64,000 nucleotides of DNA from a virus: the IMG/VR virus record IMGVR_UViG_3300042897_000994, positions 1-64,000 of that record; one strand, written 5' to 3'. The notes under the pieces were generated by a model. It worked only from the letters and a program-made list of their open reading frames with translations. It was not told the origin of the DNA and ran no database searches. This document shows positions 2-28,197 of this stretch, piece after piece. A program made the position numbers and the translations under genes. Numbering within the stretch: position 1 is the first letter of the stretch; every line of letters begins with the position of its first letter.

Positions 2-2790
2 ACTTCAGGTTCGAGCGGTTCTTCGGGAACTAGCGGCAGTTCAGGTTCAAGCGGTACCAGTGGTTCATCAGGTACTTCAGGCTCAAGTGGTTCTTCTGGA
101 ACGAGTGGTTCATCAGGTTCAAGTGGTACCTCAGGAAGTTCAGGTATATCAGGTGTAGATGGTACTGATGGAAGTTCTGGTTCTAGTGGTTCGAGCGGAA
201 CATCTGGTTCAAGTGGTTCTTCAGGAACATCTGGTTCGTCTGGAACAAGTGGTTCATCGGGAACTTCAGGTTCTTCAGGATCATCTGGAACGAGTGGTTC
301 TTCAGGTTCATCAGGAACCTCAGGCTCGTCTGGTACTTCGGGAAGTTCTGGGACATCTGGCTCATCTGGAACGAGTGGTTCTAGTGGAAGCTCGGGGACT
401 TCAGGTTCATCAGGTTCTTCAGGAACTGGAGGAACATCAGGTTCATCGGGTACTAGTGGTTCATCAGGTACTTCAGGAAGTTCTGGAACATCTGGATCGA
501 GTGGCTCGAGTGGAACAAGCGGAAGTTCAGGTTCATCAGGAACTAGTGGAAGTTCAGGATCGAGTGGAAGTTCAGGAACGAGTGGAACTAGTGGAGTTAG
601 TGGAGCATCTGGTACTAGCGGAACATCAGGTTCAAGTGGTACAAGTGGAAGCTCAGGCGCAACAGGAGCACAAGGCGTTCAGGGAGCACAGGGAGCACAA
701 GGCGTTCAAGGTGCACAAGGAAACCAAGGAGCACAGGGAGCACAAGGAAACCAAGGAGCACAGGGAGCACAGGGCGTTCAAGGAGCAACTGGAAACCAAG
801 GCGCACAAGGAGCACAAGGAGCTGCAGGATCAAGTGGATCTTCAGGAACTTCAGGTGCAACAGGAGCACAAGGCGTTCAAGGTGCACAAGGAAACCAAGG
901 AGCACAGGGTGCACAAGGAAACCAAGGAGCACAGGGAGCACAAGGAAACCAAGGAGCACAGGGAGCACAGGGTGTTCAAGGAGCAACTGGAAACCAAGGC
1001 GCACAAGGAGCACAAGGAGCTGCAGGATCAAGTGGATCAAGCGGAACGAGTGGTTCATCTGGTTCTTCAGGTTCATCAGGAACTTCGGGTTCATCTGGAA
1101 CAAGTGGTTCAAGTGGAACGAGTGGTTCAAGTGGTTCTTCTGGAACTAGTGGTTCTTCCGGTATATCGGGTGTAGATGGTACCGACGGAAGCTCTGGATC
1201 GAGTGGAAGTTCAGGAACTTCAGGAGCACAAGGTGCACAAGGTGCACAAGGTGTTCAAGGGGCACAAGGAAACCAAGGAGCGCAGGGAGCGCAAGGAAAC
1301 CAAGGAGCACAAGGAGCACAGGGTGTTCAAGGAGCAACGGGAAACCAAGGAGCACAGGGAGCACAAGGAGCTGCTGGATCAAGTGGTTCAAGCGGAACTT
1401 CAGGTGCAACAGGAAACCAGGGAGCACAAGGAGCACAAGGAGCACAAGGTGTTCAAGGAGCACAAGGAGCACAAGGTGTTCAAGGAGCACAAGGAGCACA
1501 AGGTGTTCAAGGAGCAACAGGAAACCAAGGAGCACAAGGAGCGCAAGGAAACCAAGGAGCACAAGGAGCACAGGGTGTTCAAGGAGCAACAGGAAACCAA
1601 GGAGCACAGGGAGCACAAGGAGCTGCTGGATCAAGTGGTTCAAGCGGAACTTCAGGTGCAACAGGAAACCAGGGAGCACAAGGAGCACAAGGTGTTCAAG
1701 GAGCACAAGGAGCACAAGGTGTTCAAGGAGCACAAGGAGCACAAGGTGTTCAAGGAGCAACAGGAAACCAAGGAGCACAAGGAGCACAAGGAGCTGCTGG
1801 ATCTTCGGGGTCGAGCGGAACTAGTGGTAGTTCCGGAACTAGTGGTAGTTCTGGGGTAAGTGGTATTGCTGGAACTAATGGTACATCTGGTTCTTCAGGA
1901 TCGAGCGGAACTTCAGGTGCAACAGGAAACCAAGGAGCACAAGGAGCACAGGGTGTTCAAGGAGCAACAGGAAACCAAGGGGCACAAGGAGCACAAGGAG
2001 CACAGGGTGTTCAAGGAGCAACAGGAAACCAAGGGGCACAAGGAGCACAAGGAGCGCAGGGTGTTCAAGGAGCAACAGGAAACCAAGGAGCACAAGGAGC
2101 TGCTGGATCTTCAGGATCGAGTGGAACTTCAGGTGCAACAGGAGCACAAGGTGTTCAAGGAGCAACAGGAAACCAAGGAGCACAAGGAGCACAGGGTGTT
2201 CAAGGAGCAACAGGAAACCAAGGAGCACAAGGAGCACAAGGAGCACAGGGTGTTCAAGGAGCAACAGGAAACCAAGGAGCACAAGGAGCACAAGGAGCAC
2301 AGGGTGTTCAAGGAGCAACAGGAAACCAAGGAGCACAAGGAGCTGCTGGATCTTCAGGATCGAGTGGAACTTCAGGTGCAACAGGAAACCAAGGAGCACA
2401 AGGAGCACAAGGTGTTCAAGGAGCAACAGGAAACCAAGGGGCACAAGGAGCACAGGGTGTTCAAGGAGCAACAGGAAACCAAGGAGCACAAGGTGCACAA
2501 GGTGTTCAAGGAGCAACAGGAAACCAAGGAGCACAAGGAGCACAGGGTGTTCAAGGAGCAACAGGAAACCAAGGAGCACAAGGTGCCGGAGGAGCTGCTG
2601 GATCTTCAGGATCGAGTGGAACTTCAGGTGCAACAGGAAACCAAGGAGCACAAGGAAACCAAGGAGCACAAGGAGCACAAGGAAATGCAGGAGCGCAAGG
2701 AGCACAAGGAAATGCAGGAGCACAGGGAGCACAAGGAAATGCAGGAGCACAGGGGGCACAAGGAAATGCAGGAGCACAAGGGGCACAAGG
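2..2790 (+). repeat. Collagen-type coding repeats (two interleaved repeat classes)
   Basis: Gly-X-Y coding triplets run without interruption. Serine-rich blocks (GSSGTSG) fill about 2-655 and reappear near 1025-1228 and 1801-1912. Glutamine-rich blocks fill most of the rest. Near the 3' end a higher-order unit of about 243 nt recurs; the junction encoding [12 protein letters not shown] is found near 2100, 2343 and 2594. The repeat is richer in G and C than the rest of the window and stays open in several other frames and on the other strand. Confidence 0.9.
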
Positions 2791-3277
2791 TGCAGCGGTA
2801 TCAGTGTCTGGAACCAACAATACAGTAGTTAAATTTACAGGCGCAAGTACAGTAGGAAATAGCCAGATCACGGACGATGGTACTACCGTTACTATGACGG
2901 GAAGACTCGGAGTTGGTTCCGGTGTTAGTGTACCAGCAACCAATGGGGTAATTGTTGCAACAAATGATGTAATAGCTTTTGCTTCCTCCGACTCTAGGTT
3001 AAAAGATAATAAAACTATTCTGACTAACCCTCTAGATAAAGTTTCTAAACTGAATGGGTACGAGTTCGATTGGATCCCGATGCTTGGAATTCACGAAAAT
3101 GAAGGACACGATATTGGTTTAATAGCACAAGAGGTTGAAAAAGTACTGCCAGAAATTGTTAAAACTCGTGATAATGGATATAAAGCTATTAGATACGAGA
3201 AGATCGTTCCTCTACTAATTGAAGCTATTAAAGAGCTAAGCGCGGAGATAGATAAATTAAAAAGTAAAAAATCATAA
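2..3277 (+). CDS. Collagen-like tail fibre with C-terminal S74 self-cleaving chaperone domain (5' truncated)
   Basis: The reading frame is open from the first in-frame base, so the gene begins before the window; 1091 codons are visible. About 930 residues are Gly-X-Y triplets, first serine/threonine-rich (GSSGTSG) and then glutamine/alanine-rich ([16 protein letters not shown]), which should form a long collagen-like triple-helical shaft. A short beta-rich stretch follows, then an S74 peptidase/intramolecular chaperone domain. It holds the S-D-S-R-L-K motif (Ser codon at 2987, Lys codon at 3002, spaced i to i+5 as in endosialidase chaperones), the conserved G-L-I-A-Q-E-V-E segment and a terminal helix ending in an amphipathic coiled coil. 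By family knowledge the C-terminal ~95 residues help trimerise the fibre and are then cut off before the serine. The next gene starts 2 nt after the stop. Shaft and chaperone are clear; the receptor-binding part is not recognised. Confidence 0.9.
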
Positions 3278-6193: not shown

Positions 6194-6224
6194 TTAAGAT
6201 ATTATGATAATCAAGTTAGGGGGA

Positions 6225-10290: not shown

Positions 10291-11889
10291 ATGGCATTTG
10301 ATCCAGAAAGTTTAGGCGCTGCATTTGGCAGAAATCGTGGCTTCAGAGATGCAGCTGTAAAGCAGTTTGTTGACTCTGGTGCTCAAAATAATGTAGGCTT
10401 CGGTTATCAGATTGGAGAAGTTCCTCTGAATAAAATAGAAGATCCTACATACTTAGGTTTTTCTTTTGTTTTTGACAAAATGTCTCCACTTTTTAATTTA
10501 AGCGATGGAGCTACAGACAACACAGCATATAGTTATCTTTTACACACATATCCAGAAGGTAATCAGTTAAGAGCTAAATACATGAGAGCTTTTGTAGAAT
10601 CTTTTTTAGCTATTAATGATAGATTCCCTTATTATTTTCAATCGATAGAAGGATTAGATACGATATGGAAAAAAACAACTATGTTCACCGATCCGTATTT
10701 CGGGGGAGATGATTCAAAAATATCAGTAGATTGTCTAGAGGCTTTAGATCTTAAAATTACCGGGATCATGGACCTTTATAGAAAAGCTGTATATGATCCG
10801 ATAAATAGAAGAGTTATTCTTCCTGAAAATTTAAGAGAATTTGATGTAGTAGTTTATGTAAAAGAAATTAGAAAATTTAGAACTTCCGCAAAAAGACTTT
10901 CAGACCTTTTAGTAACTACGAATCCTCTAGCTAACACTTTTAATAATGTAGATTTAGATCAAATTCCACCTACTGAATTTAACTCAACCGCTCAGTTTGT
11001 AAATGAAAATTCTTCATTCGTTTCTTTTACTCTCAAGTTTTGTGAATTTGTACCAGAAGATTCATCTGCATTTTTAGACAACGTTTCAAACGTCGGTGGA
11101 GAATCTGCAAAGCAGAAAATATCTTGGATTTGGAAAGATGTAGAAGAAAACAACAGATATTCAAGTCTAGTTTATTTTGCAAGTAGTTTAGCAGCAAACG
11201 GGTTAGGTGCAAATTCTGGAGGTAACGGAAGTAGATGGGCAAACGCTGCAAGAGAATTTGCTAAATCAGTAATTTATCAAGGAATTGGAGCTGCTACTCA
11301 AAAACTTGCAAATGTTATTAATCAGGGTCAGCTAGGAAACGTATTTGGATTTAGTCCAAATCAGCTACAGACTCTTCTCGTTTCTCAGAGCATCGATTCT
11401 GTAATCAGATCTGCTACAACACCAGAAGAAGATACAGATGAATTAGGAAGGCTTAAAGTTTTTTCAGAAACATTAGAAAGACCGGGTTTGGATGAATTTA
11501 ATTTGTTCGGAGAGCCCGGCGGAGAGCCTCCTCAATATACGGGAGAAAAAATCTTACCAGATGGAAATCTTCCTACGAATAAAGACGGAAATCAATCTTC
11601 GCCACTAAACGGAACTGGAAATCCTTTGGATTCTAATCCAAACCCAATAACTCCCCTGAAACCTGACAACAATTTCCCAACACCTCCGGGACCACAAGCG
11701 TTTACGGGTACTAATGTTTTAGAATCTAATCAAAATCCTACCACACCTTTAACTCCAGATAAAGTTTTAGATGCTGCTCAAACTCCTACAAATCGTGATG
11801 GATCAGAGCCACCAAAATTAAAAAGAGAACAGATACTTGGCGAGGGTGGAGCACCGGGACCGTTAGCACCTGATAATATTTTCGGATGA
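10291..11889 (+). CDS. Baseplate/tube-associated structural protein, 532 aa
   Basis: Residues 1-320 form a folded part with LKITGIMDLYRKAVYD and VILPENLREFDVVVYVKEI. This reads like a tail-tube or tube-initiator beta domain, but I cannot name the T4 counterpart (gp48 or gp54 would be position-compatible). Residues ~425-532 are Pro/Asn/Asp-rich and carry a loose tandem repeat: LDSNPNPITPLKPDN and LESNQNPTTPLTPDK lie roughly 40 residues apart. The start is preceded by AGATAAATATATT, with no Shine-Dalgarno. It ends with an ATGA overlap to the spike gene. Confidence 0.5.
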   Translation: MAFDPESLGAAFGRNRGFRDAAVKQFVDSGAQNNVGFGYQIGEVPLNKIEDPTYLGFSFVFDKMSPLFNLSDGATDNTAYSYLLHTYPEGNQLRAKYMRAFVESFLAINDRFPYYFQSIEGLDTIWKKTTMFTDPYFGGDDSKISVDCLEALDLKITGIMDLYRKAVYDPINRRVILPENLREFDVVVYVKEIRKFRTSAKRLSDLLVTTNPLANTFNNVDLDQIPPTEFNSTAQFVNENSSFVSFTLKFCEFVPEDSSAFLDNVSNVGGESAKQKISWIWKDVEENNRYSSLVYFASSLAANGLGANSGGNGSRWANAAREFAKSVIYQGIGAATQKLANVINQGQLGNVFGFSPNQLQTLLVSQSIDSVIRSATTPEEDTDELGRLKVFSETLERPGLDEFNLFGEPGGEPPQYTGEKILPDGNLPTNKDGNQSSPLNGTGNPLDSNPNPITPLKPDNNFPTPPGPQAFTGTNVLESNQNPTTPLTPDKVLDAAQTPTNRDGSEPPKLKREQILGEGGAPGPLAPDNIFG

Positions 11890-12638
11890 GAAAAGAGATA
11901 GATCCAATAAATGATAATTTAGCAACCACTAAGTGGGTAGGAGTAGTCGTGAACAATGACGATCCTCTTCGTTTAGGAAGATGTCAGGTTAGAATATTCG
12001 GAAAGTTTGATATGAGAGAAGATCCTTTCTCAAATGATAGCCCCTTTATTATTCCAGATGAAAATCTTCCTTGGAGTTATCCAGCTACTTCTACTACTGC
12101 TTCATCCGAAACAGGAGGTGCTGGATTTTCTGTTCCAAAAATAAACTCTATAGTTTCCGTAACTTTTGATAATGGAAACCCATACTTTCCAGAATATAAT
12201 TTTAATCAACACTATTCAGATGAAGTTTTAACTGAAATCCAAAATAGTTATGCAAATGCTCATGTTCTTTGGTATGATGTTGTAACTGAAGGCGGTATGA
12301 AAGTTTTCTTTACCGAAGAAAAAGGCTTGGTGTTAGATTATAAAGAAACACAACTAAACGTCAAACCAGATAATTCAATTGTAATTCTAAACCCAAACGG
12401 TGATACTGTAACTCTTTCAAATGATGGTAATTTAACTATCAAAACTTCATCTAAAGTAAAGGTTGATTCTCCTTCTATAGAACTAGGTTCCAAAGCAGCA
12501 GAAGCGGTGATAAAAGGAAATACATTTCAGGCTTTGTTTAATGCGCATACTCATATCGGAAATCTAGGAGCGCCTACAGGTCCACCGATTATTCCACTAA
12601 ATGGATCTGAATTAAGTACAGTAACTAAAACCCAATAA
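11886..12638 (+). CDS. gp5-like baseplate spike protein (OB domain plus beta-helix tip, no lysozyme)
   Basis: The protein has 250 residues. The N-terminal region (WVGVVVNNDDPLRLGRCQVR, then LPWSYPA) is the OB-fold of gp5/gpV spikes. Residues ~165-200 carry short repeats (NGDTVTLSNDGNLTIKTSSK) typical of the triple-stranded beta-helix. Near the C-terminus, FNAHTHIG supplies an H-x-H pair (His221, His223) followed by APTGPP, as in iron-binding spike tips. By family knowledge the trimer sits below the hub and pierces the outer membrane. There is no lysozyme domain, unlike T4 gp5, so cell-wall cutting must come from elsewhere. Confidence 0.8.
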   Translation: MRKEIDPINDNLATTKWVGVVVNNDDPLRLGRCQVRIFGKFDMREDPFSNDSPFIIPDENLPWSYPATSTTASSETGGAGFSVPKINSIVSVTFDNGNPYFPEYNFNQHYSDEVLTEIQNSYANAHVLWYDVVTEGGMKVFFTEEKGLVLDYKETQLNVKPDNSIVILNPNGDTVTLSNDGNLTIKTSSKVKVDSPSIELGSKAAEAVIKGNTFQALFNAHTHIGNLGAPTGPPIIPLNGSELSTVTKTQ

Positions 12639-12972: not shown

Positions 12973-14097
12973 ATGCCTATACAAAAAATTCAAATTCTTC
13001 GAGACGAAGAAAACCCATTTGACGTAATTGAAACAGAAGTAGAAGTACCAAAAGGAAGTAAAATCCTATCAAATGAACCTTATGTTCTAGATGTACTACA
13101 CTATTACTTTAAAAATTCTGAAGTATCTTTCAAACCTATCACCGACAATGAAATTATAGATTCAAAAATAATCTATATTTCGGAGTCTTCTATTATTGTA
13201 GACATTAACGGAAAAGACAATGCCTACATCGATCTCCTAAAGGAGAAAATGTCTTCAAATGAATTCCGAATTGGAGACACTGTCAAAATTAAAGTTAAAA
13301 AAGGCCATAAAGAAGGAAGCATCGAAGCGAGCATTGGTGCAGCTTCTACACAGGGAAAGATCGAGGACTTAGTAAATTCAATCGGTTCTAAAACTGTAGC
13401 TTACAAAGCACAAGTTAAAGAACTTATCAACGGTGGATATTATCTAATGATAGACGATATAAAAGTATTTATGCCTGGTTCACTTGCAGGTATGAACAAA
13501 CTTTCAGATTTTGAAAGAATGCTGGGAAAAGAAATTATTGTAATGCCTGTAAACTTCTCCAAAGAAAGAAATATTGTAGTAGTTTCTCACAGAGAATATT
13601 TAAAAACTTTGGTCCCTGTTGCAATTGATAGAGTTAGTGAAAATCCAAATGATCTCAGAGAAGGTACAGTTACCGGAACTTCGGGTTCTGGGATATTTGT
13701 AGAGTTTGAAGAATGTCTAACAGGATTGATCACCGTAACCGAAATGGAAAGGTGTAAAACCGATTTCGAGAATGGAAGTATTAAACCTGGGGATTCTATT
13801 CAATTTAGAATTAAGCAAATCATTAGTGAGACTAAGATTATTTTAACACAAAAGGAGAGGGAATATAGTCCATGGGATGACATCGAGGATAGATACTCAC
13901 CCGAAACCAGAATCACTGGAAATGTAGTAAAGAAAGCATCTTACGGTCTCTTTGTTGAAATTGAAAAAGGCATCAATGGTCTTCTTCACTCATCAAACAT
14001 AAAGGGTGATAATTTTGAAGAAGGAGATTCAATCGATGTAATTATTACCAAGATAGATCCTGTAAATAGAAAAATAACCCTTAGAAGAAAAAGGTAA
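12973..14097 (+). CDS. Ribosomal protein S1-like RNA-binding protein
   Basis: The protein has 374 residues with apparently four S1-type OB domains: a degenerate one at ~62-120 (GDTVKIKVKKG), then ~140-210, ~226-293 (REGTVTGTSGSGIFVEFEEC) and ~310-373 (ITGNVVKKASYGLFVEIEKG, NGLLHSSNI). The last two are textbook S1 repeats. Cellular S1 is longer (about 550-600 aa, six domains) and delivers mRNA to the 30S subunit. Phage S1 homologues are known from surveys of viral ribosomal proteins. Because phage genes here lack Shine-Dalgarno sites, a phage S1 could favour A-rich phage leaders on host ribosomes; that is inference. It is a single-gene unit with a strong terminator behind it, lodged between two structural operons. 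Confidence 0.88.
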   Translation: MPIQKIQILRDEENPFDVIETEVEVPKGSKILSNEPYVLDVLHYYFKNSEVSFKPITDNEIIDSKIIYISESSIIVDINGKDNAYIDLLKEKMSSNEFRIGDTVKIKVKKGHKEGSIEASIGAASTQGKIEDLVNSIGSKTVAYKAQVKELINGGYYLMIDDIKVFMPGSLAGMNKLSDFERMLGKEIIVMPVNFSKERNIVVVSHREYLKTLVPVAIDRVSENPNDLREGTVTGTSGSGIFVEFEECLTGLITVTEMERCKTDFENGSIKPGDSIQFRIKQIISETKIILTQKEREYSPWDDIEDRYSPETRITGNVVKKASYGLFVEIEKGINGLLHSSNIKGDNFEEGDSIDVIITKIDPVNRKITLRRKR

Positions 14098-14116
14098 AGG
14101 CTTAATCTCAGGTAAG

Positions 14117-14145
14117 AAAAAACCTAGCTTCGGCTAGGTTTTTTT
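14117..14145 (+). terminator. Intrinsic terminator after the S1-like gene
   Basis: AAAAAACCTAGC-TTCG-GCTAGGTTTTTTT: a perfect stem with a UUCG tetraloop and a seven-T tail. It separates the S1-like gene from the next late promoter at 14154. Confidence 0.93.
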
Positions 14146-14153
14146 GTGTGAGA

Positions 14154-14162
14154 TATATAAAA
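14154..14162 (+). promoter_or_regulatory. Late-promoter-like element
   Basis: GAGATATATAAAAAAAG, core TATATAAAA, 13 nt before the GTG start at 14176, directly after the terminator at 14117-14145. It heads the wedge operon. Confidence 0.65.
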
Positions 14163-14175
14163 AAAGTCTACTAAT

Positions 14176-15459
14176 GTGAATTTTACAAGAGAGGAAACCC
14201 TTTATAATACTATCATTTCTTACACTTCTGAATTTTATTCGGAATTAGGAATGGATGATGTTAAAGCATTAATTTCATCATCTTTAGGAAGAAAAGTCTA
14301 TCCTAAAGATTCTTTCCAGTTAACAGAAACTCTGATGCACGATTATCTCAGAATTTCTAAAAATTCAGCAGGAAAGTACTCAATGACCACCGGCTATTTG
14401 AGATATTCCGAAGGTCGTTTGTATCTTACAAAAATGTTGAATATGATTGATGAGAATTTCTCAACCGAAAAGGACTGTAGTCTAAATTTCAGTGTAATGT
14501 ATTCTGCTTATGATCAACCAGGTACTCCTGATATATCAAGATTAGATTCTCTTAAGTTTATTTTAGAATATGATGAAAACGTTCCATACACACATTTCCC
14601 AGAGAGAAAAAATGTACTTTATTCAAAGTCTATCAAAAATATTCTTCCTGGCAGCAAATTTTTCACAGAAAGCTCAGCAAACATTTCTTCTAGAAACTAC
14701 AGCTATCCTTTTCAGCCTTATTTTGCTGTAGATTTTTCTTCTCTAAAAAGAGGCAATCTAACTTTTAGATATATTGGTGGAGAAGATTATCAAAAGAAAG
14801 AAGGAATTAGAGAGATTATTGAATATTCTTCTTTAACTCTCTATAGTTGCATCAGAAATCCGTACATTAACGAAAAGAACAAAGCTGAATTAGATAAGAT
14901 TCTAAGTAAACATCAAGCAATTTCCGATTCTTATTCTTCAGCTACCGATTTTAAAAGGAGTTTTCCTGATATTACTCTGATGGTAAATCTGCAATCAGAT
15001 AAGAGAGTGATTGATACGATGTATCCTTACATCAGAGATAAAATATACAATCTTCTAATTGAATGCAATTTTCAAAGGGGCTACTTGAACTATGATTCAA
15101 ATAACGGAAAGCTTCAGATTAAAGATGCAGAGATCAATAATGCATATCTGATTGACAACATAGACATCTTTGATTCGAAAATAGAAGGTACCATTTCGAA
15201 TTGTGATATATTTCAATCTGAAATCAAAGAATCTGAAATTTTTAGATGTAACTTGTTTGATAGATCTAAAGCTATTAATTGCTACCTATACAATTCTTAT
15301 GTGAACGGAAATAGCATACTCAATGAATCTACAGTAGAAGGTGATCTTGGTATATTTTCGGGGAAGATGAAAGATGGAGTTTTTGTCTCTGGAAAAATAA
15401 CTCAAAGTGCTAATCTATCTGATACCACTAAAGTAATCTCATACCAAAAAATAAGCTAA
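14176..15459 (+). CDS. Virion protein with C-terminal pentapeptide-like beta-helix, 427 aa
   Basis: The start is GTG. The ATG two bases earlier is followed at once by a stop, and the late-promoter spacing (13 nt) supports GTG. Residues 1-300 are not recognised. Residues ~318-410 show short repeating units (IDNIDIFDSKIEGTISNC, DIFQSEIKESEIFRCNLF) with hydrophobic residues every five or so positions, like pentapeptide-repeat parallel beta-helices. The protein heads the operon that continues with gp25 and gp6, so it is probably a structural or assembly protein. The function is unknown. Confidence 0.6.
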   Translation: MNFTREETLYNTIISYTSEFYSELGMDDVKALISSSLGRKVYPKDSFQLTETLMHDYLRISKNSAGKYSMTTGYLRYSEGRLYLTKMLNMIDENFSTEKDCSLNFSVMYSAYDQPGTPDISRLDSLKFILEYDENVPYTHFPERKNVLYSKSIKNILPGSKFFTESSANISSRNYSYPFQPYFAVDFSSLKRGNLTFRYIGGEDYQKKEGIREIIEYSSLTLYSCIRNPYINEKNKAELDKILSKHQAISDSYSSATDFKRSFPDITLMVNLQSDKRVIDTMYPYIRDKIYNLLIECNFQRGYLNYDSNNGKLQIKDAEINNAYLIDNIDIFDSKIEGTISNCDIFQSEIKESEIFRCNLFDRSKAINCYLYNSYVNGNSILNESTVEGDLGIFSGKMKDGVFVSGKITQSANLSDTTKVISYQKIS

Positions 15460-15462
15460 CAC

Positions 15463-16245
15463 ATGGCAAACATGACACCTGAACAAGTTAGATGTACTGA
15501 TGAATTAGTAAAAATGATTCAGCAAGAAGTTACAGTAGCTTGTCAAATTCCCATTACTATACCGAAGCAAGAAATTCTTCGAATTATTGATAGAGCCAAG
15601 AAATGGTTCTACAAAAATTATGAATACTCTGTACAAGAAAAATACTATGCAGTAGATGCTACAGCATTTTCAACTACTGCGTTTAAAAGAAGCGGAGAAA
15701 TTTTCATGCCGGAAAATGTATTTGCTGTAAATGCTGTATATCAGATAGGCGAATTTAGCGGAGAAGATGGAGGATTTGGAGGTTATAGTTTTAACGGTTT
15801 AGATCCTGATTTTGCTCTTGATAAATGGGTTTATGGAAATGTCTATGGCTCTGGTATTGGATCTGAAAATTTGATGTATTATGTAATTAATGCAATGTTC
15901 ATCGACTTAGCTAGATTTACTTTACAGCAGATGATGTCTTACAATTACAACTATCTGAATTATAAGTTTAGATTTATGGGACAGCTGCCAACTAATACAT
16001 GTATTTTTCTGGTATATGAAAAAATTGATGATTGCGCTCTATTTTCAGAAGAGATTTTTATCAGATATTGTGTAGCAGAAACCAAGTTGCAATTGGCCAG
16101 AATTACAGGTACTTTTAATTTCAACTTACCAGGAAATGTTACTATCAACTATTCCGAAATAAGAAGTGAGGCAACTGATGAAATTTCGTCAATTAAAGAA
16201 GAAATAAAAGGCGATGAAGGGGTAGATTACTTCTTTACAGACTAA
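15463..16245 (+). CDS. Putative tail/neck structural protein, 260 aa
   Basis: The protein starts 3 nt after the upstream stop. It has an N-terminal helical part (TIPKQEILRIIDRAKKWFYK), a glycine-rich loop near residues 98-130, and a helical segment rich in Tyr/Asn (YNYNYLNYKFRFMGQLP). It ends in an acidic tail. I know the style from T4-like structural gene clusters but cannot assign a name; a neck or completion protein is possible. It precedes gp25. Confidence 0.5.
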   Translation: MANMTPEQVRCTDELVKMIQQEVTVACQIPITIPKQEILRIIDRAKKWFYKNYEYSVQEKYYAVDATAFSTTAFKRSGEIFMPENVFAVNAVYQIGEFSGEDGGFGGYSFNGLDPDFALDKWVYGNVYGSGIGSENLMYYVINAMFIDLARFTLQQMMSYNYNYLNYKFRFMGQLPTNTCIFLVYEKIDDCALFSEEIFIRYCVAETKLQLARITGTFNFNLPGNVTINYSEIRSEATDEISSIKEEIKGDEGVDYFFTD

Positions 16246-16274: not shown

Positions 16275-16631
16275 ATGCCAGATATCTATACTAGAACTGA
16301 TGACATGCTCAATTACCAACCGGATTTGTTGGAAGTAGATGATGATATTTCATTATTGATTTTACAGCTTGAAAACTTGTTGTTTACTGAGCCTCGTCGA
16401 GTTTTAGGATCTTCTAATTTTGGCATTGATCTAGAAGGATTGCTTTTTAATTTGATGTTGAATGAATCTTATATTCAAGGAAGAATAACCACTGCAATTG
16501 GAAACTTTTGCCCCTTAAGAGAGACTTATCAAATTGATGTAAGGGTAAATTTCTACTCTGGAGAAGTTTCTGACATAGGAGAAGTTTTGATAACTGTAGA
16601 TGGTAGAAAAGTATTTTCAGTTTTAGTATAA
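16275..16631 (+). CDS. 25: gp25-like baseplate wedge protein
   Basis: The 118-residue length fits gp25 (132 aa in T4). The central segment ILQLENLLFTEPRRVLGSSN followed by FGIDLEGLLF matches the gp25/gpW family, in which this region forms the core that contacts gp6 and starts sheath assembly. The gene for gp6 follows 13 nt downstream, as expected for the wedge. An AT-rich leader with ATATATAAACC abuts the ATG. That is too close to act like the other late-promoter motifs. Confidence 0.88.
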   Translation: MPDIYTRTDDMLNYQPDLLEVDDDISLLILQLENLLFTEPRRVLGSSNFGIDLEGLLFNLMLNESYIQGRITTAIGNFCPLRETYQIDVRVNFYSGEVSDIGEVLITVDGRKVFSVLV

Positions 16632-16644
16632 AAAAAAGAGATAA

Positions 16645-18516
16645 ATGAACTTCTTAAATAAAAATAGAATTAAGGCTCTTCAGATTTATCAGGATGCTTT
16701 TAATTATCTTTCGGATATTTACAATCAATCCAGAAATGTGTTTACGCCTGCTTCTCCTTTCGGGCAGCTATTAACAGTGACTGCAAACTTAGGAGAAATG
16801 ATTTTCTTTTATATAGAAGCTGCTATCACTGAATTAAATATTGCTCGTGCAAAAAACGTTGAATCTGTTTATGGTCTAGCAAGACTTACCGGTCACAATG
16901 CAACTAGAGGTATTTCTGCAGAGGGGAAGTTAGGATTGAAATTGAAAACTGATGCAGCAGATAATATCACCGGAAACTACTTGTCAATAGTTAATAAAAC
17001 TCGTCTTTCATGTTCAGTTAATGGATTGGAGTATTTTTTCGAGTTTTACAAAGATGAGTTTATCATTGATAAAACTGATACAACTATACATTACGCAAAA
17101 ATATTTCAAGGAAAGACTGAATTTCAAATTTTTACAGGAAATGGTCAGCCTCTACAAAGCTACTCAGTATCTACCGGTGGAGCGGTAGACAATTACATGG
17201 TAAAAGTTACGGTAAACGGAAGACTTTACAAAGTTACGGAATCTCTCTATGACATGAATCAGAATGAGGAAATGTGTCTTGCAAAAACCGGAATAAGCGG
17301 AGGTCTTGATATTTATTTTGGAAATGGATATTTTGGAGCAATTCCACTAGAAGGAAGTTCTATTCAAATCGAATATGTAAGAACTGCAGGTTCGGCGGGC
17401 AACATTGGTGGTAGTGATGACATAACATTTCAATTCTTAGATGAAGGAAAGGATGAATTTGGAAACCCAGTTGATCTTACTGCTCTTTTAGACGTAATTA
17501 TAGTTTCTCCCCCTTCATTTGGTTCAAACACAGAAAATCCGGACTTTACTAGACTGATTGCACCAAAGGCGAGTAAATCTTTTGTTCTTGCTAATCCTGA
17601 TGCTTATGTGTATTTTCTAAAAAAGTACACATATTTTTCGTTCGTAGATGCCTTCAATACCAAAGACGATGAATATATCAATGACGATAATATTATCTAC
17701 TTAAGTTTGCTTCCGGATATCACAAGAAAACTAACTTCAGACGTTGATTATTTTACTTTACCCGAAGAAGAATTTACACTGACGGAAAGCGAAAAGTTGA
17801 TGGTTAATGATATTTTAGACAGAAGTGGTCAAATGTTGATCACGGCTGAGAATAGAATTATAGATATAGCTATCAAGAGATATGCAATTAGTATAGTGTT
17901 ACGTTATTTTGATGATGCAGATAAGAGTGAAATAAGATCTAATATCAGAAAAATCTTAAATGAATATTTCATAAACGTAAAACGCAGAGACAGAATACCA
18001 AGATCTGACGTAATTTCATTGATTGAAGAAGTTTCAGGCGTAGATTCTGTAAATGTATTCTTCATTTCAGAAGAAAATGAAAAAGCAGTTAGAGATGGAT
18101 ATTACATCGTACCTGTTTATGGATATGATCCTATCACACAACAGAGAACTCTTATAGAAAATAAGAAGGTTGTTTTGCAACCCGGAGAAGATCCAGGTCT
18201 CGGTTTAGATGAGTTTGGTGATATTATGATAGGAGATAGAGAACTTTCCATCATTAGAGGGGGTTGGTACGACAGAAATAATAATTATTTTGAAGTCTAT
18301 CCAGATTCTGATAAGATGTCATCTTTAAATGTTTTCTTTAAAGAATCTATCAAATCAGATCTTTACAACAAGATTCAGCAACAGAATATGAATCAAATCA
18401 GAAGAAAGGCTGTAATGAATAATACTACTGAAGTTGGATCTACTCTTCTTAATCAAACTACTCAAACCAAATTAGAAAATCCAATTTCTAATATCAAAAA
18501 CGGAATAACACGATGA
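16645..18516 (+). CDS. 6: gp6-like baseplate wedge protein (baseplate J family)
   Basis: The protein has 623 residues (T4 gp6 has 660). The N-terminus (FTPASPFGQLLTVTANLGEM, then IFFYIEAAITELNIARA) is the classic gp6/gpJ helical start. The middle has the GYFGAIPLEGSSIQIEYVRT strand region and GSAGNIG. The C-terminal domain (ISLIEEVSGVDSVNVFFISE) matches the dimerising part. By family knowledge gp6 forms the ring that holds the baseplate together and changes shape on triggering. The start follows AAAAAAAGAGATAA, without Shine-Dalgarno. It overlaps the next gene by 4 nt. Confidence 0.88.
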   Translation: MNFLNKNRIKALQIYQDAFNYLSDIYNQSRNVFTPASPFGQLLTVTANLGEMIFFYIEAAITELNIARAKNVESVYGLARLTGHNATRGISAEGKLGLKLKTDAADNITGNYLSIVNKTRLSCSVNGLEYFFEFYKDEFIIDKTDTTIHYAKIFQGKTEFQIFTGNGQPLQSYSVSTGGAVDNYMVKVTVNGRLYKVTESLYDMNQNEEMCLAKTGISGGLDIYFGNGYFGAIPLEGSSIQIEYVRTAGSAGNIGGSDDITFQFLDEGKDEFGNPVDLTALLDVIIVSPPSFGSNTENPDFTRLIAPKASKSFVLANPDAYVYFLKKYTYFSFVDAFNTKDDEYINDDNIIYLSLLPDITRKLTSDVDYFTLPEEEFTLTESEKLMVNDILDRSGQMLITAENRIIDIAIKRYAISIVLRYFDDADKSEIRSNIRKILNEYFINVKRRDRIPRSDVISLIEEVSGVDSVNVFFISEENEKAVRDGYYIVPVYGYDPITQQRTLIENKKVVLQPGEDPGLGLDEFGDIMIGDRELSIIRGGWYDRNNNYFEVYPDSDKMSSLNVFFKESIKSDLYNKIQQQNMNQIRRKAVMNNTTEVGSTLLNQTTQTKLENPISNIKNGITR

Positions 18517-24360: not shown

Positions 24361-27300
24361 ATGTCTGAGAATTCAATATCAACCCTACTACCACAGCTGT
24401 TAAGACTTTATCAGAACTCTATCAGTTCCTATGAAGCGATGACGGGTGCAGTTACGGGAAATGAGGAGACCGTTAATATTGACGTAATAGAAAATGACAA
24501 CACTATTACAAAACTACCAGTTCCTACATTTGGGTATCTGAAGAATGAAATTCAAAGACTGGAGAGAAATATAGCAACTCTTACTAACTACGATTCTGCA
24601 TCGAATAGCAGTATTCTGCTACCTGATGGGTCTGTTAGAAGTATTATTCTTCAAAAACTTGAAGCAGAAGCTTCAGATTTGACAAGCATCAATAGTGTTA
24701 CAAATTTTTCTGTCAAGCAGAATTATTTCTTTGATGATTTTATGACGCCTCTTTTATATGTGAGCTTTGATTTAACGAATCAAATTTCTCCAAATACAGA
24801 AGAAGCCGTCCTGAGTATCTTCTATATGACTATTGATTCTCAAGATAAATTGAACTATTTTAATTCCGAATTAAAGGGTTCGAGCATTTTGGAATATGAT
24901 TCGTTTAAGTCTGCTTTAGATGATAGAGGAATTTCATATTTAGAAGAAACTGAAGTCAAAGCAATATCGCCAAGAAATAATAGATATTACGGAACTTTTG
25001 ATGTAAATGATATATCTTCTTCTACTGTTACACAGCTTATAAATGGCGTAAACACTACGGTAGTCTTAAAGACTTATCGCTTGAATAAGTTGACTTATTC
25101 TGATTCCGATTCTCCTTTCACAGACACTCAAAGTATTAAGATTGGTGATAGCTTGGTGATTAATCAAGATCCTATTAGTACAAGATATGAAGTGGTAAGT
25201 GTGGATTCAGGGACGAATTCTGTGACATTAAAGTTACTAGAAGGTAATTCTCCTATTACTATTGGTTCTGAGATTTTTAAAATTTACAAGAGTCCAGAAA
25301 GTACAGTTTCTTTAGACTTGAATGTAGGATACGGAGAATACTTAGCAGTATTCATTAAACCTGTAGATCCTAATTCAAGAATACCAGCGATTAACTGGTC
25401 TCCAGGTTCGGCTTTCTTTACGAACGATTTGACGATTACTCTTTCGAGTGGAGAAGTAAAACCTCTTTATAATTATTACAGAGAATTTGTTACAGATTTT
25501 GGTGCTTATATTTTAGGTCTAGCTGTTGATAAAATTCCTACATCATCTCAAGCAATCACTCCTGATTCTCCCGTTCTGAATTCTTCAGATTTTAAAGTAG
25601 TTCAAATTAATCAACAAATCACTAACAAGAGAGAAGTTGCAGAGATTGAAGACTTGAATAAACAGAAGAATACCCTATCATCTGAGATTAAAGAGCTTGA
25701 CAATGCAATTGCGGCAAAGAGAAGCGAAATAGCAAATAAAAATTATAAGAATTCGGTTGAAAGAGATGCTGATAAAAATCAGCTAGATGGTCTTGTAACT
25801 CAAAGATCTACAAAAGCGGATTTATATTCATCTATTGTTAAGAGCATAGATGCCAAAGCCACAGATGCAGGTTTAACTGCAGCAGATCCAAAATATCGGG
25901 TTAGAGGATTCTTTCCTCTTCCTTCACCTAAAGTTTCTAATGAAACTGGGGCTCAACAGATTGTACAGTTTCTTATTGAATATAAATATCTGAATACTGA
26001 TGGCTCTGCTAATCCAGTAGATACTTTCAATTTTCAAGATGGAAATTCAGAAGCAAGCGGCGCTTTTTCAAACTGGGTAGAAGTTTACGGTCCAGTAAGA
26101 CCTAGAGTTTACAATGCGAGTTCTCAGAAATATCAATGGGCAACTATTCTTACACAAGATTCAGATACTATCAATATTAATCAGGTTGATATTCCTATTA
26201 CTAAAGGAGAACAAGTTGAAATTAGAGTACGAAGCGTTTCGGAAGCAGGTTGGCCTTCAAATCCAGCTCTTTCCGATTATTCTGAATCAGTTATTATTTC
26301 ATTCCCAACTGAAATCAATACTGACAATACTCTGAATGACATTATCAAACAGAATCAAGAGTCTTTAGCTGCTGTAAAACTGCAAGAAGCTATTAATTCA
26401 AAAGGAATTGATCAACATTTATCAAGTTCTTTTACAGCTAACGAGAAGTATTTTGCACACGATGCTACTGTTATTTCTTCAGGATTCGTATCTGGTAATC
26501 AAACTCCAATAGATCTTTTCACGAAGCTGAATCAGTTACAAAATGAAATTACTAGTCTTCAACAAGTAATAGCTGGAATCGGTGGAGAACTTGCAGTTTC
26601 TATTATCGATGATCAGGGGGTTGAAACTGCATTGGTTAAAGATCAACTAAATACGTTCTTTGCCGGATATTACGCAGATGCAGTAAACGGACTAAGTATC
26701 AAGAAAGGTGCTATAGTTACTAAAACTTACTTCATTAATATCAAGAATACCAATCAAAATCCATTAGAACTTATTTCTAAGATCTTTGGTAGCTCTGACA
26801 GAAAAGTTAGAGAATCAGAAGATCCTTCTGCTTCTTCATCTTCTAGCACGATTCTTCCTGCGATTTATGAGTATTTAGACAATTTTAATACTTATGTAAG
26901 TTCAGATTCTACATATAATACTCTGTATAAATATGACTTGGTTCCTCTATTGTTAACAAGTCCTGATGTAACTTCATCAGATCCATATACTCAGATAGAA
27001 TCTTTAGCTCCATATCAGTCTTCTCAAGTAAAATCTCAGTTCATTTACTCTAGATATTATGATGTTGCAGGAGAAGAAAAATTCTATCAAAGCGTAGAAC
27101 CAGGAACTACTACTCCAATTTACAATTTAGATGATGCAGAAAATTTTTACGGAAGACTTTCATATGAAACTTCGTTAGGAGCCAGCTTTATCTTCGGGGG
27201 TTCTTTTGCATACGATGTAGTTACCGGTAAGTTTCTTCCTACCACTTCAACTACTTTTTATAATAACGATGACAATACAATAGAAATTCATACTTCGCAT

Positions 27301-28197
27301 CCTTCTTTAGCTAGACTGAATACATTTAAAAGCTTTTATGAGAGCATAACACAGGACACTGGAACTGGTAGTGGAGTTGGAGTTACTATTCCTTCAGAAT
27401 CTGATCTTTTCACCGCAGGTTACGATCTTTATGTTGCAAATGAACGGGTAGATAGCGGAACATATTTGGGTAGAAGAACTATATTTCCAGTAATTAGAAA
27501 TTCAAAGTATGCTCCTCTAAGTGCCTCAAGTGCTTATACCAAATCTCAAAATATGTATATTTTTGAAGAAGTTGCTAATATGGGAACTTCTCAAACATAT
27601 AATATAACGGGCAGTCCTACTCTTATTGATACAAGTTTACATATCACTAATGCTTCTACTAATACCGGTGATGGTTTAGGTGGAGTTGACTTTCAGAGAG
27701 GCGCTAAAATGTCTTTTGAAAGCGACGATCAGTATCTGTTAGGCAAAAAGAGCTGCGGTTCTTATCTTTTCATTTCTACCGATATTCATAGCAGTATTTG
27801 CGTAGATGGTAAAGCTTCAACTTCAACTAAAAAGATTTTAAACGGAACTAACAATTCAATCAAAGTTCCTGTAGTTTTCCAATATCGAATGACAGATTTT
27901 TACGGCTCTGGAACAAGTGGCTTAGGAAACATCGGAGGTGATTCTACAGGAAGCACTACAAATCTTACATATACCAAGAGGATAGGTTTTGATATTTTGA
28001 TCAAAGACGGAACAGTTTATTCTTATGACTTAGAAGTTTCTGCAAAATACAAATCAGATTCGTTGAATCTAAATTCTGTACCTTCGGTTAGTGTTTCTAC
28101 TGCAGTAAGTGACTTACAGGGAGTGATAAAAAATCTATCTCCTGCAGTACCACAAACTATAGGGGCAGCTAGCACAAATACTATTTCGACTGGTTAA
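24361..28197 (+). CDS. Very large tail structural protein with FN3-like domain, 1278 aa
   Basis: The N-terminal ~400 residues are beta-rich with a short helix pair. A coiled coil lies near residues ~420-475 (IEDLNKQKNTLSSEIKELDN). An FN3-like domain follows (QVEIRVRSVSEAGWPSNPA, SDYSESVIISFP, residues ~615-650). The C-terminal half contains further beta domains. The leader GATAAATATACAT lies just before the ATG. It is probably the periphery of the baseplate or a long side fibre. FN3 domains in phage structural proteins often bind carbohydrate surfaces. Not matched to a T4 gene. Confidence 0.55.
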   Translation: MSENSISTLLPQLLRLYQNSISSYEAMTGAVTGNEETVNIDVIENDNTITKLPVPTFGYLKNEIQRLERNIATLTNYDSASNSSILLPDGSVRSIILQKLEAEASDLTSINSVTNFSVKQNYFFDDFMTPLLYVSFDLTNQISPNTEEAVLSIFYMTIDSQDKLNYFNSELKGSSILEYDSFKSALDDRGISYLEETEVKAISPRNNRYYGTFDVNDISSSTVTQLINGVNTTVVLKTYRLNKLTYSDSDSPFTDTQSIKIGDSLVINQDPISTRYEVVSVDSGTNSVTLKLLEGNSPITIGSEIFKIYKSPESTVSLDLNVGYGEYLAVFIKPVDPNSRIPAINWSPGSAFFTNDLTITLSSGEVKPLYNYYREFVTDFGAYILGLAVDKIPTSSQAITPDSPVLNSSDFKVVQINQQITNKREVAEIEDLNKQKNTLSSEIKELDNAIAAKRSEIANKNYKNSVERDADKNQLDGLVTQRSTKADLYSSIVKSIDAKATDAGLTAADPKYRVRGFFPLPSPKVSNETGAQQIVQFLIEYKYLNTDGSANPVDTFNFQDGNSEASGAFSNWVEVYGPVRPRVYNASSQKYQWATILTQDSDTININQVDIPITKGEQVEIRVRSVSEAGWPSNPALSDYSESVIISFPTEINTDNTLNDIIKQNQESLAAVKLQEAINSKGIDQHLSSSFTANEKYFAHDATVISSGFVSGNQTPIDLFTKLNQLQNEITSLQQVIAGIGGELAVSIIDDQGVETALVKDQLNTFFAGYYADAVNGLSIKKGAIVTKTYFINIKNTNQNPLELISKIFGSSDRKVRESEDPSASSSSSTILPAIYEYLDNFNTYVSSDSTYNTLYKYDLVPLLLTSPDVTSSDPYTQIESLAPYQSSQVKSQFIYSRYYDVAGEEKFYQSVEPGTTTPIYNLDDAENFYGRLSYETSLGASFIFGGSFAYDVVTGKFLPTTSTTFYNNDDNTIEIHTSHPSLARLNTFKSFYESITQDTGTGSGVGVTIPSESDLFTAGYDLYVANERVDSGTYLGRRTIFPVIRNSKYAPLSASSAYTKSQNMYIFEEVANMGTSQTYNITGSPTLIDTSLHITNASTNTGDGLGGVDFQRGAKMSFESDDQYLLGKKSCGSYLFISTDIHSSICVDGKASTSTKKILNGTNNSIKVPVVFQYRMTDFYGSGTSGLGNIGGDSTGSTTNLTYTKRIGFDILIKDGTVYSYDLEVSAKYKSDSLNLNSVPSVSVSTAVSDLQGVIKNLSPAVPQTIGAASTNTISTG

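Follow-up and report, generated by a model that had tools for sequence, protein, structure and literature searches.

A tailed phage carries among its baseplate genes a protein that is D1-D4 of ribosomal protein bS1 without D5-D6 (Table 1), and comparisons of loci and of gene trees indicate that its gene is a vertically inherited core gene of a large clade of T4-like Bacteroidota phages. The window, meaning the whole stretch of DNA that was analyzed, is 64,000 bases long and comprises bases 1-64000 of a virus record of 160,937 bases (a 160.9-kb tailed-phage contig).

Table 1. Features of the S1 gene, its product and its locus, in window coordinates.
Feature	Position	Strand	Remarks
Phage bS1-like protein, 374 aa	12973..14097	+	ATG start; four OB folds (D1-D4), no D5-D6
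N-terminal extension, aa 1-55	12973..13137	+	Beta hairpin and helix; conserved inside the phage family
D1, aa 56-121	13138..13335	+	OB fold with lowest conservation
D2, aa 141-207	13393..13593	+	Phage-specific FMPGSLAGxNKL motif; highest conservation of all domains
D3, aa 226-297	13648..13863	+	Phage-specific ECLTGLI motif; canonical His missing in window sequence
D4, aa 309-373	13897..14091	+	Y324, F327 and H339 of the S1 RNA-binding surface retained
gp5-like baseplate hub	11886..12638	+	Conserved cassette neighbour
Late-promoter-like box AGATATATAA	12938..12947	+	Upstream of S1; putative promoter
Intrinsic terminator hairpin	14116..14145	+	After S1; 13-bp stem, T run
Second AGATATATAA box	14151..14160	+	Upstream of next gene (14176)
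Conserved neighbour of S1, function unassigned	14176..15459	+	No Pfam or PHROG match
Head-tail adaptor, Ad2-like	15463..16245	+	Conserved cassette neighbour; used as S1-independent bait
Baseplate wedge genes, gp25-like (16275-16631) and gp6/J-like (16645-18516)	16275..18516	+	

Domain make-up and ancestry of the phage S1

The open reading frame matches the Pfam S1 domain (PF00575) with 71 bits (cut-off 22), and the same domain is matched by 24 of 24 aligned family members. In a phmmer search of PDB sequences, residues 59-373 align to residues 18-344 of E. coli bS1 as a single colinear stretch spanning D1-D4, whereas PNPase, RNase R and GSP13-type proteins score far lower; the N-terminal extension finds only one match at chance level among the PDB sequences. 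An AlphaFold2 model built from 24 window and IMG/VR sequences (mean pLDDT 83.8) begins with a hairpin and a helix, which are followed by four OB folds, although the pTM of 0.53 makes the mutual placement of the S1 domains unsure. The best Foldseek match for this model is 9gut_B, which is bS1 in a 30S mRNA delivery complex (E 1.5e-24). The “three or four S1 domains” of an earlier sequence-only reading are thus settled at four by the modeled OB folds, and the same reading was right to call the protein shorter than host S1, since the cellular bS1 genes retrieved mostly encode 550-650 aa as compared with 374 aa in the phage. Truncation after D4 is shared by the whole family, and the six-domain layout that includes D5-D6, as in Bacteroidota, is not present in the window S1. 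Four-domain bS1 proteins occur in other phyla. The top NCBIfam models are those for full-length rpsA, with scores far under the equivalog cut-offs (best 159.8 bits vs 624; 155.3 vs 524); because the protein is truncated and diverged, we name it bS1-derived and not a bona fide rpsA.

Relative to cellular bS1, D1 and the N-terminus have diverged and D4 is best kept, with Y324, F327 and H339 unchanged in all 24 members. The canonical His of D3 is gone from the window protein and from many relatives. An N-terminal FDW/FNW motif of Bacteroidia bS1 is found in three relatives (L005, L009 and Lak-C1) and is absent from the window protein; it occurs in 8 of 114 cellular bS1 proteins, all of them within the Bacteroidia/Flavobacteriia branch. 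That the protein is an S1 of the translation type, as first proposed, is borne out by three factors: 1) its colinearity with bS1 D1-D4; 2) the retained RNA-binding residues of D4; and 3) the Bacteroidia-type N-terminal motif in some relatives.

In a tree with cellular bS1, 22 phage S1 sequences lie on one side of a branch with SH-aLRT 100 and a long stem, a split to be read with caution in view of the root and the long branches. The S1 proteins of the LR7565xx phages and Lak phages group with that of the window as a monophyletic set. The phylogeny against Bacteroidota S1 that had been suggested yields a phage-only clade, while the D1-D4 tree names no donor because of its long branches. The shared FDW/FNW motif points to a Bacteroidia bS1 as the likely ancestor, or else to a common docking partner. 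A profile scan with the phage alignment confirmed no phage-type S1 in genome contigs; together with an identity of about 25% between window S1 and cellular bS1 and with the long stem, this leaves recent acquisition from a host unsupported. That the S1 gene came from contaminating bacterial DNA is rejected by its synteny with relatives. Separately, some GenBank “phage” records hold bacterial bS1 (MT835478, CAKLQH020000011 and MT835643, our L023, L024 and L025): the gene in L024 stands beside cmk and himD, and that in L025 is a full-length Bacteroides-type bS1. The S1 genes of these three records are probably bacterial contamination.

Locus, promoter-like boxes and inheritance

The order of genes is gp5-like hub, small companion gene, S1, the unassigned 14176-15459 gene, and then the Ad2-, gp25- and gp6-like genes. 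A AGATATATAA box lies 26-35 nt 5' of the S1 ATG. On the 160.9-kb contig, where the + strand bears 161 of 163 called ORFs, GATATATAA has 20 copies on the + strand and 0 on the - strand; these are mostly intergenic (e.g. at window positions 6223, 12939, 14152, 28207 and 44837) and are present in 12 of 49 intergenic gaps, where 1.0 would be expected. When a single mismatch is tolerated, the window holds no clear excess of the box compared with shuffled sequence, so the case for a promoter-like element rests on strand and position. Among relatives, TATATAA is found 5' of S1 in 60 of 75 loci and 5' of the next gene in 61 of 70, as compared with counts of 0-1 ahead of six closely spaced genes (8252, 8785, 10291, 11886, 15463 and 18513). 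The GATATATAA box is probably a late promoter of this phage lineage, and may be likened to the T4 late promoter TATAAATA.

The hairpin past the S1 stop codon has a predicted energy of -24.2 kcal/mol (z -5.7). A classical terminator follows S1 in only 13 of 78 rows, 2 of these 13 being bacterial controls, and in almost all relatives S1 is followed by a homologue of the 14176-15459 gene, which has a promoter-like box of its own. The box before S1, the terminator behind it, the second box ahead of the next gene and the retention of TATATAA in relatives support S1 as a separate transcription unit, presumably expressed with the virion genes, and so uphold its earlier description as a single-gene unit. 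Elsewhere in the window, the 5'-open frame at 2-3277 encodes a collagen-like repetitive fibre protein of 1091 aa with GAQGAQG and SGSSGTSG repeats, whose C-terminus bears an S74-type chaperone-like motif (SDSRLKDN). In two Mahaphages, the product of the gene directly 5' of S1 (L018:14103-14510 and L019:14061-14474) is 136-138 aa long and contains a UVR motif (PF02151).

At least 579 S1 relatives were confirmed in IMG/VR. The cassette order is repeated in about 85 loci and in the 462-kb phage LR756500, with neighbours that are mostly 28-60% identical. So that loci were not chosen by S1, we used Ad2 as bait: S1 is present in 64 of 64 loci in which 3.3 kb or more of sequence precedes Ad2, in a sample which consists of the 80 best-scoring matches, is not unbiased and overlaps the S1-selected set. 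For 22 phages, the S1 and gp6 trees have 10 of 19 bipartitions in common (label shuffles: mean 0.2, maximum 3), and a single origin of S1 on the gp6 tree is neither demonstrated nor rejected (AU p 0.27). Vertical inheritance as a core gene is argued from the Ad2 loci and from this agreement of trees. Linkage to gp6 and Ad2 is not obligatory, because S1 lies far from both in Mahaphages and Lak-C1.

Shine-Dalgarno-poor leaders and a possible role on the 30S subunit

We compared Shine-Dalgarno (SD) use with one ORF caller for every genome, counting SD-like tetramers at -18..-4. Such tetramers precede 5.6% of 144 ORFs of the contig as compared with 6.2% in the control window, and leader A content is 0.52 vs 0.37 in the control, in agreement with the earlier description of A-rich leaders lacking AGGAGG. 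The argument once drawn from this, which leads from missing SD sites to S1, does not discriminate. No PF00575 match was found in the whole genomes of five relatives, MaF61, pT24, PTm1, MA9V-1 and PAU, which have gp6 (and most also Ad2) in common with S1 carriers, and SD-like tetramers reach 0-10% in this small control of five genomes and 49-kb stretches, as against 0-11% in other S1-carrying huge phages. Leaders are similarly A-rich with and without S1. The frequency is 60% in T4, 44% in Rhizobium phage RHEph12 and 27% in crAss001, an unrelated Bacteroides phage whose control window gives 24%. PAU has the deposited host name Sphingomonas, which is not of the Bacteroidota, and joins Tenacibaculum phages in the gp6 tree. 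Bacteroidota themselves do without SD use (PMC6847099, PMC9976891). SD absence follows the host, not S1, and we discard it as evidence for S1 function because the S1-negative relatives are equally SD-poor. The idea was also not new, since Al-Shayeb et al. 2020 (PMC7162821) described rpS1 in huge phages, as the sequence-only reading knew of viral homologues, and noted that carriers of possible rpS1 rarely have SD sites. Our comparison suggests that this published correlation is confounded by host phylum, and serves as a warning that it may mirror nothing else.

On balance we lean slightly towards a late, exchangeable bS1 that would dock on the 30S platform and load A-rich phage leaders through D4. 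Late in infection, the phage protein would replace or supplement host bS1, its N-terminus and D1-D2 docking on the 30S subunit and its D4 touching the message around nt -12 to -15; A-rich phage leaders could thereby go on being initiated at a high rate, with D5-D6 dispensable for that purpose. In bS1, D1 is anchored on uS2 and D4 is positioned to contact mRNA at -12 to -15 (Baez 2019, PMC6847099), and the phage protein keeps the D1-D4 span described for this docking and contact. The same paper repeats the speculation that bS1 reads an A-rich motif of Bacteroidota. We favour an exchangeable bS1 because of the colinearity with bS1 D1-D4, the best structural match in a 30S mRNA delivery complex, a family truncated after D4 with the D4 aromatics and His invariant, the A-rich leaders, the FDW/FNW motif in phage relatives, the presence of S1 in all 64 Ad2 loci with enough upstream DNA, the agreement of the S1 and gp6 trees, and the gene's own promoter-like box among virion genes. 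We also count as precedent the entry of phage bS21 and bL12 into ribosomes (PMC6375957). Three observations count against it: D1, which in E. coli docks on uS2, is the least conserved OB fold and the window protein has no FDW; S1-negative relatives cope with leaders of the same kind; and the gene is located in a structural cassette.

A further step is tentative and rather doubtful, namely that this Bacteroidota phage clade depends on its own bS1, with a phage-specific 30S for late virion genes as an obligate, lineage-wide specialized ribosome and not an optional auxiliary gene. If the protein does act on the ribosome, a translation protein would be as much a core component as the baseplate genes, and ribosome takeover would be part of the basic life cycle of the lineage. 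Phage S1 would then also be a naturally occurring minimal D1-D4 bS1, suited to testing whether reading of A-rich leaders replaces SD pairing in Bacteroidota.

We judge it unlikely, if the foremost alternative, that the protein works off the ribosome by coating, protecting or unfolding late phage mRNAs, or by regulating its own or a neighbouring mRNA. Many RNA-binding proteins outside the ribosome contain S1 domains (PMC6375957), Al-Shayeb 2020 (PMC7162821) left “on or off the ribosome” open, and a diverged D1 and N-terminus beside a well-retained D4 would suit such a role; the colinearity of four domains with bS1, and not with PNPase, RNase R or GSP13-type proteins, argues against it. Recruitment of a former bS1 as a baseplate structural component or assembly factor is a decidedly improbable reading. 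It would account for the fixed position of S1 between the baseplate hub and the Ad2/wedge genes in all syntenic relatives, for its co-inheritance with gp6, and for the large proteins that likewise adjoin Mahaphage S1, among which is a homologue of window 24361-28197. However, an assembly role would not require invariant RNA-binding residues in D4, S1 is distant from gp6 and Ad2 in the Mahaphages and Lak-C1, the five S1-negative phages have a homologous baseplate, and S1 appears to form its own transcription unit. A dominant-negative competitor, ousting host bS1 to shut off host translation, would fit the truncation after D4 and the competition with the host protein that was first envisaged, but is very improbable, since the promoter-like box and cassette suggest virion-gene timing, late for host shut-off, and the phage has A-rich leaders of the type that Bacteroidota use, with no obvious escape for phage mRNA.

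Comparison with known systems

Cellular Bacteroidia bS1 is like the phage protein in the order of D1-D4 and in the FDW/FNW motif of some phage relatives, and unlike it in having six domains instead of four, at low identity and across a long branch. The Microcystis jumbo phage PhiMa05 also encodes a bS1 (PMC13157829), which, compared here by description, reportedly came from a Vampirovibrio-like host with five other ribosomal proteins. Phage bS21 (PMC6375957, PMC9723584) is similarly an exchangeable ribosomal protein, situated close to the path of the mRNA, and is tied to late replication, but is a different protein; neither bS21 nor tRNAs were found on the 160.9-kb contig, and four Mahaphages have both bS21 and S1. 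The closest system is the huge-phage rpS1 of PMC7162821, where the LR756500 homologue is 42% identical over 99% and the Mahaphages and Lak phages belong to the same S1 clade. Phage rpS1 genes and their correlation with SD absence are thus already published. To these we add hundreds more contigs and, as features not found in the literature searched, the core status of the gene, its syntenic, promoter-bearing baseplate-cassette locus, the definition of the protein as D1-D4 with a Bacteroidia motif, and a test of the SD correlation on S1-negative relatives.
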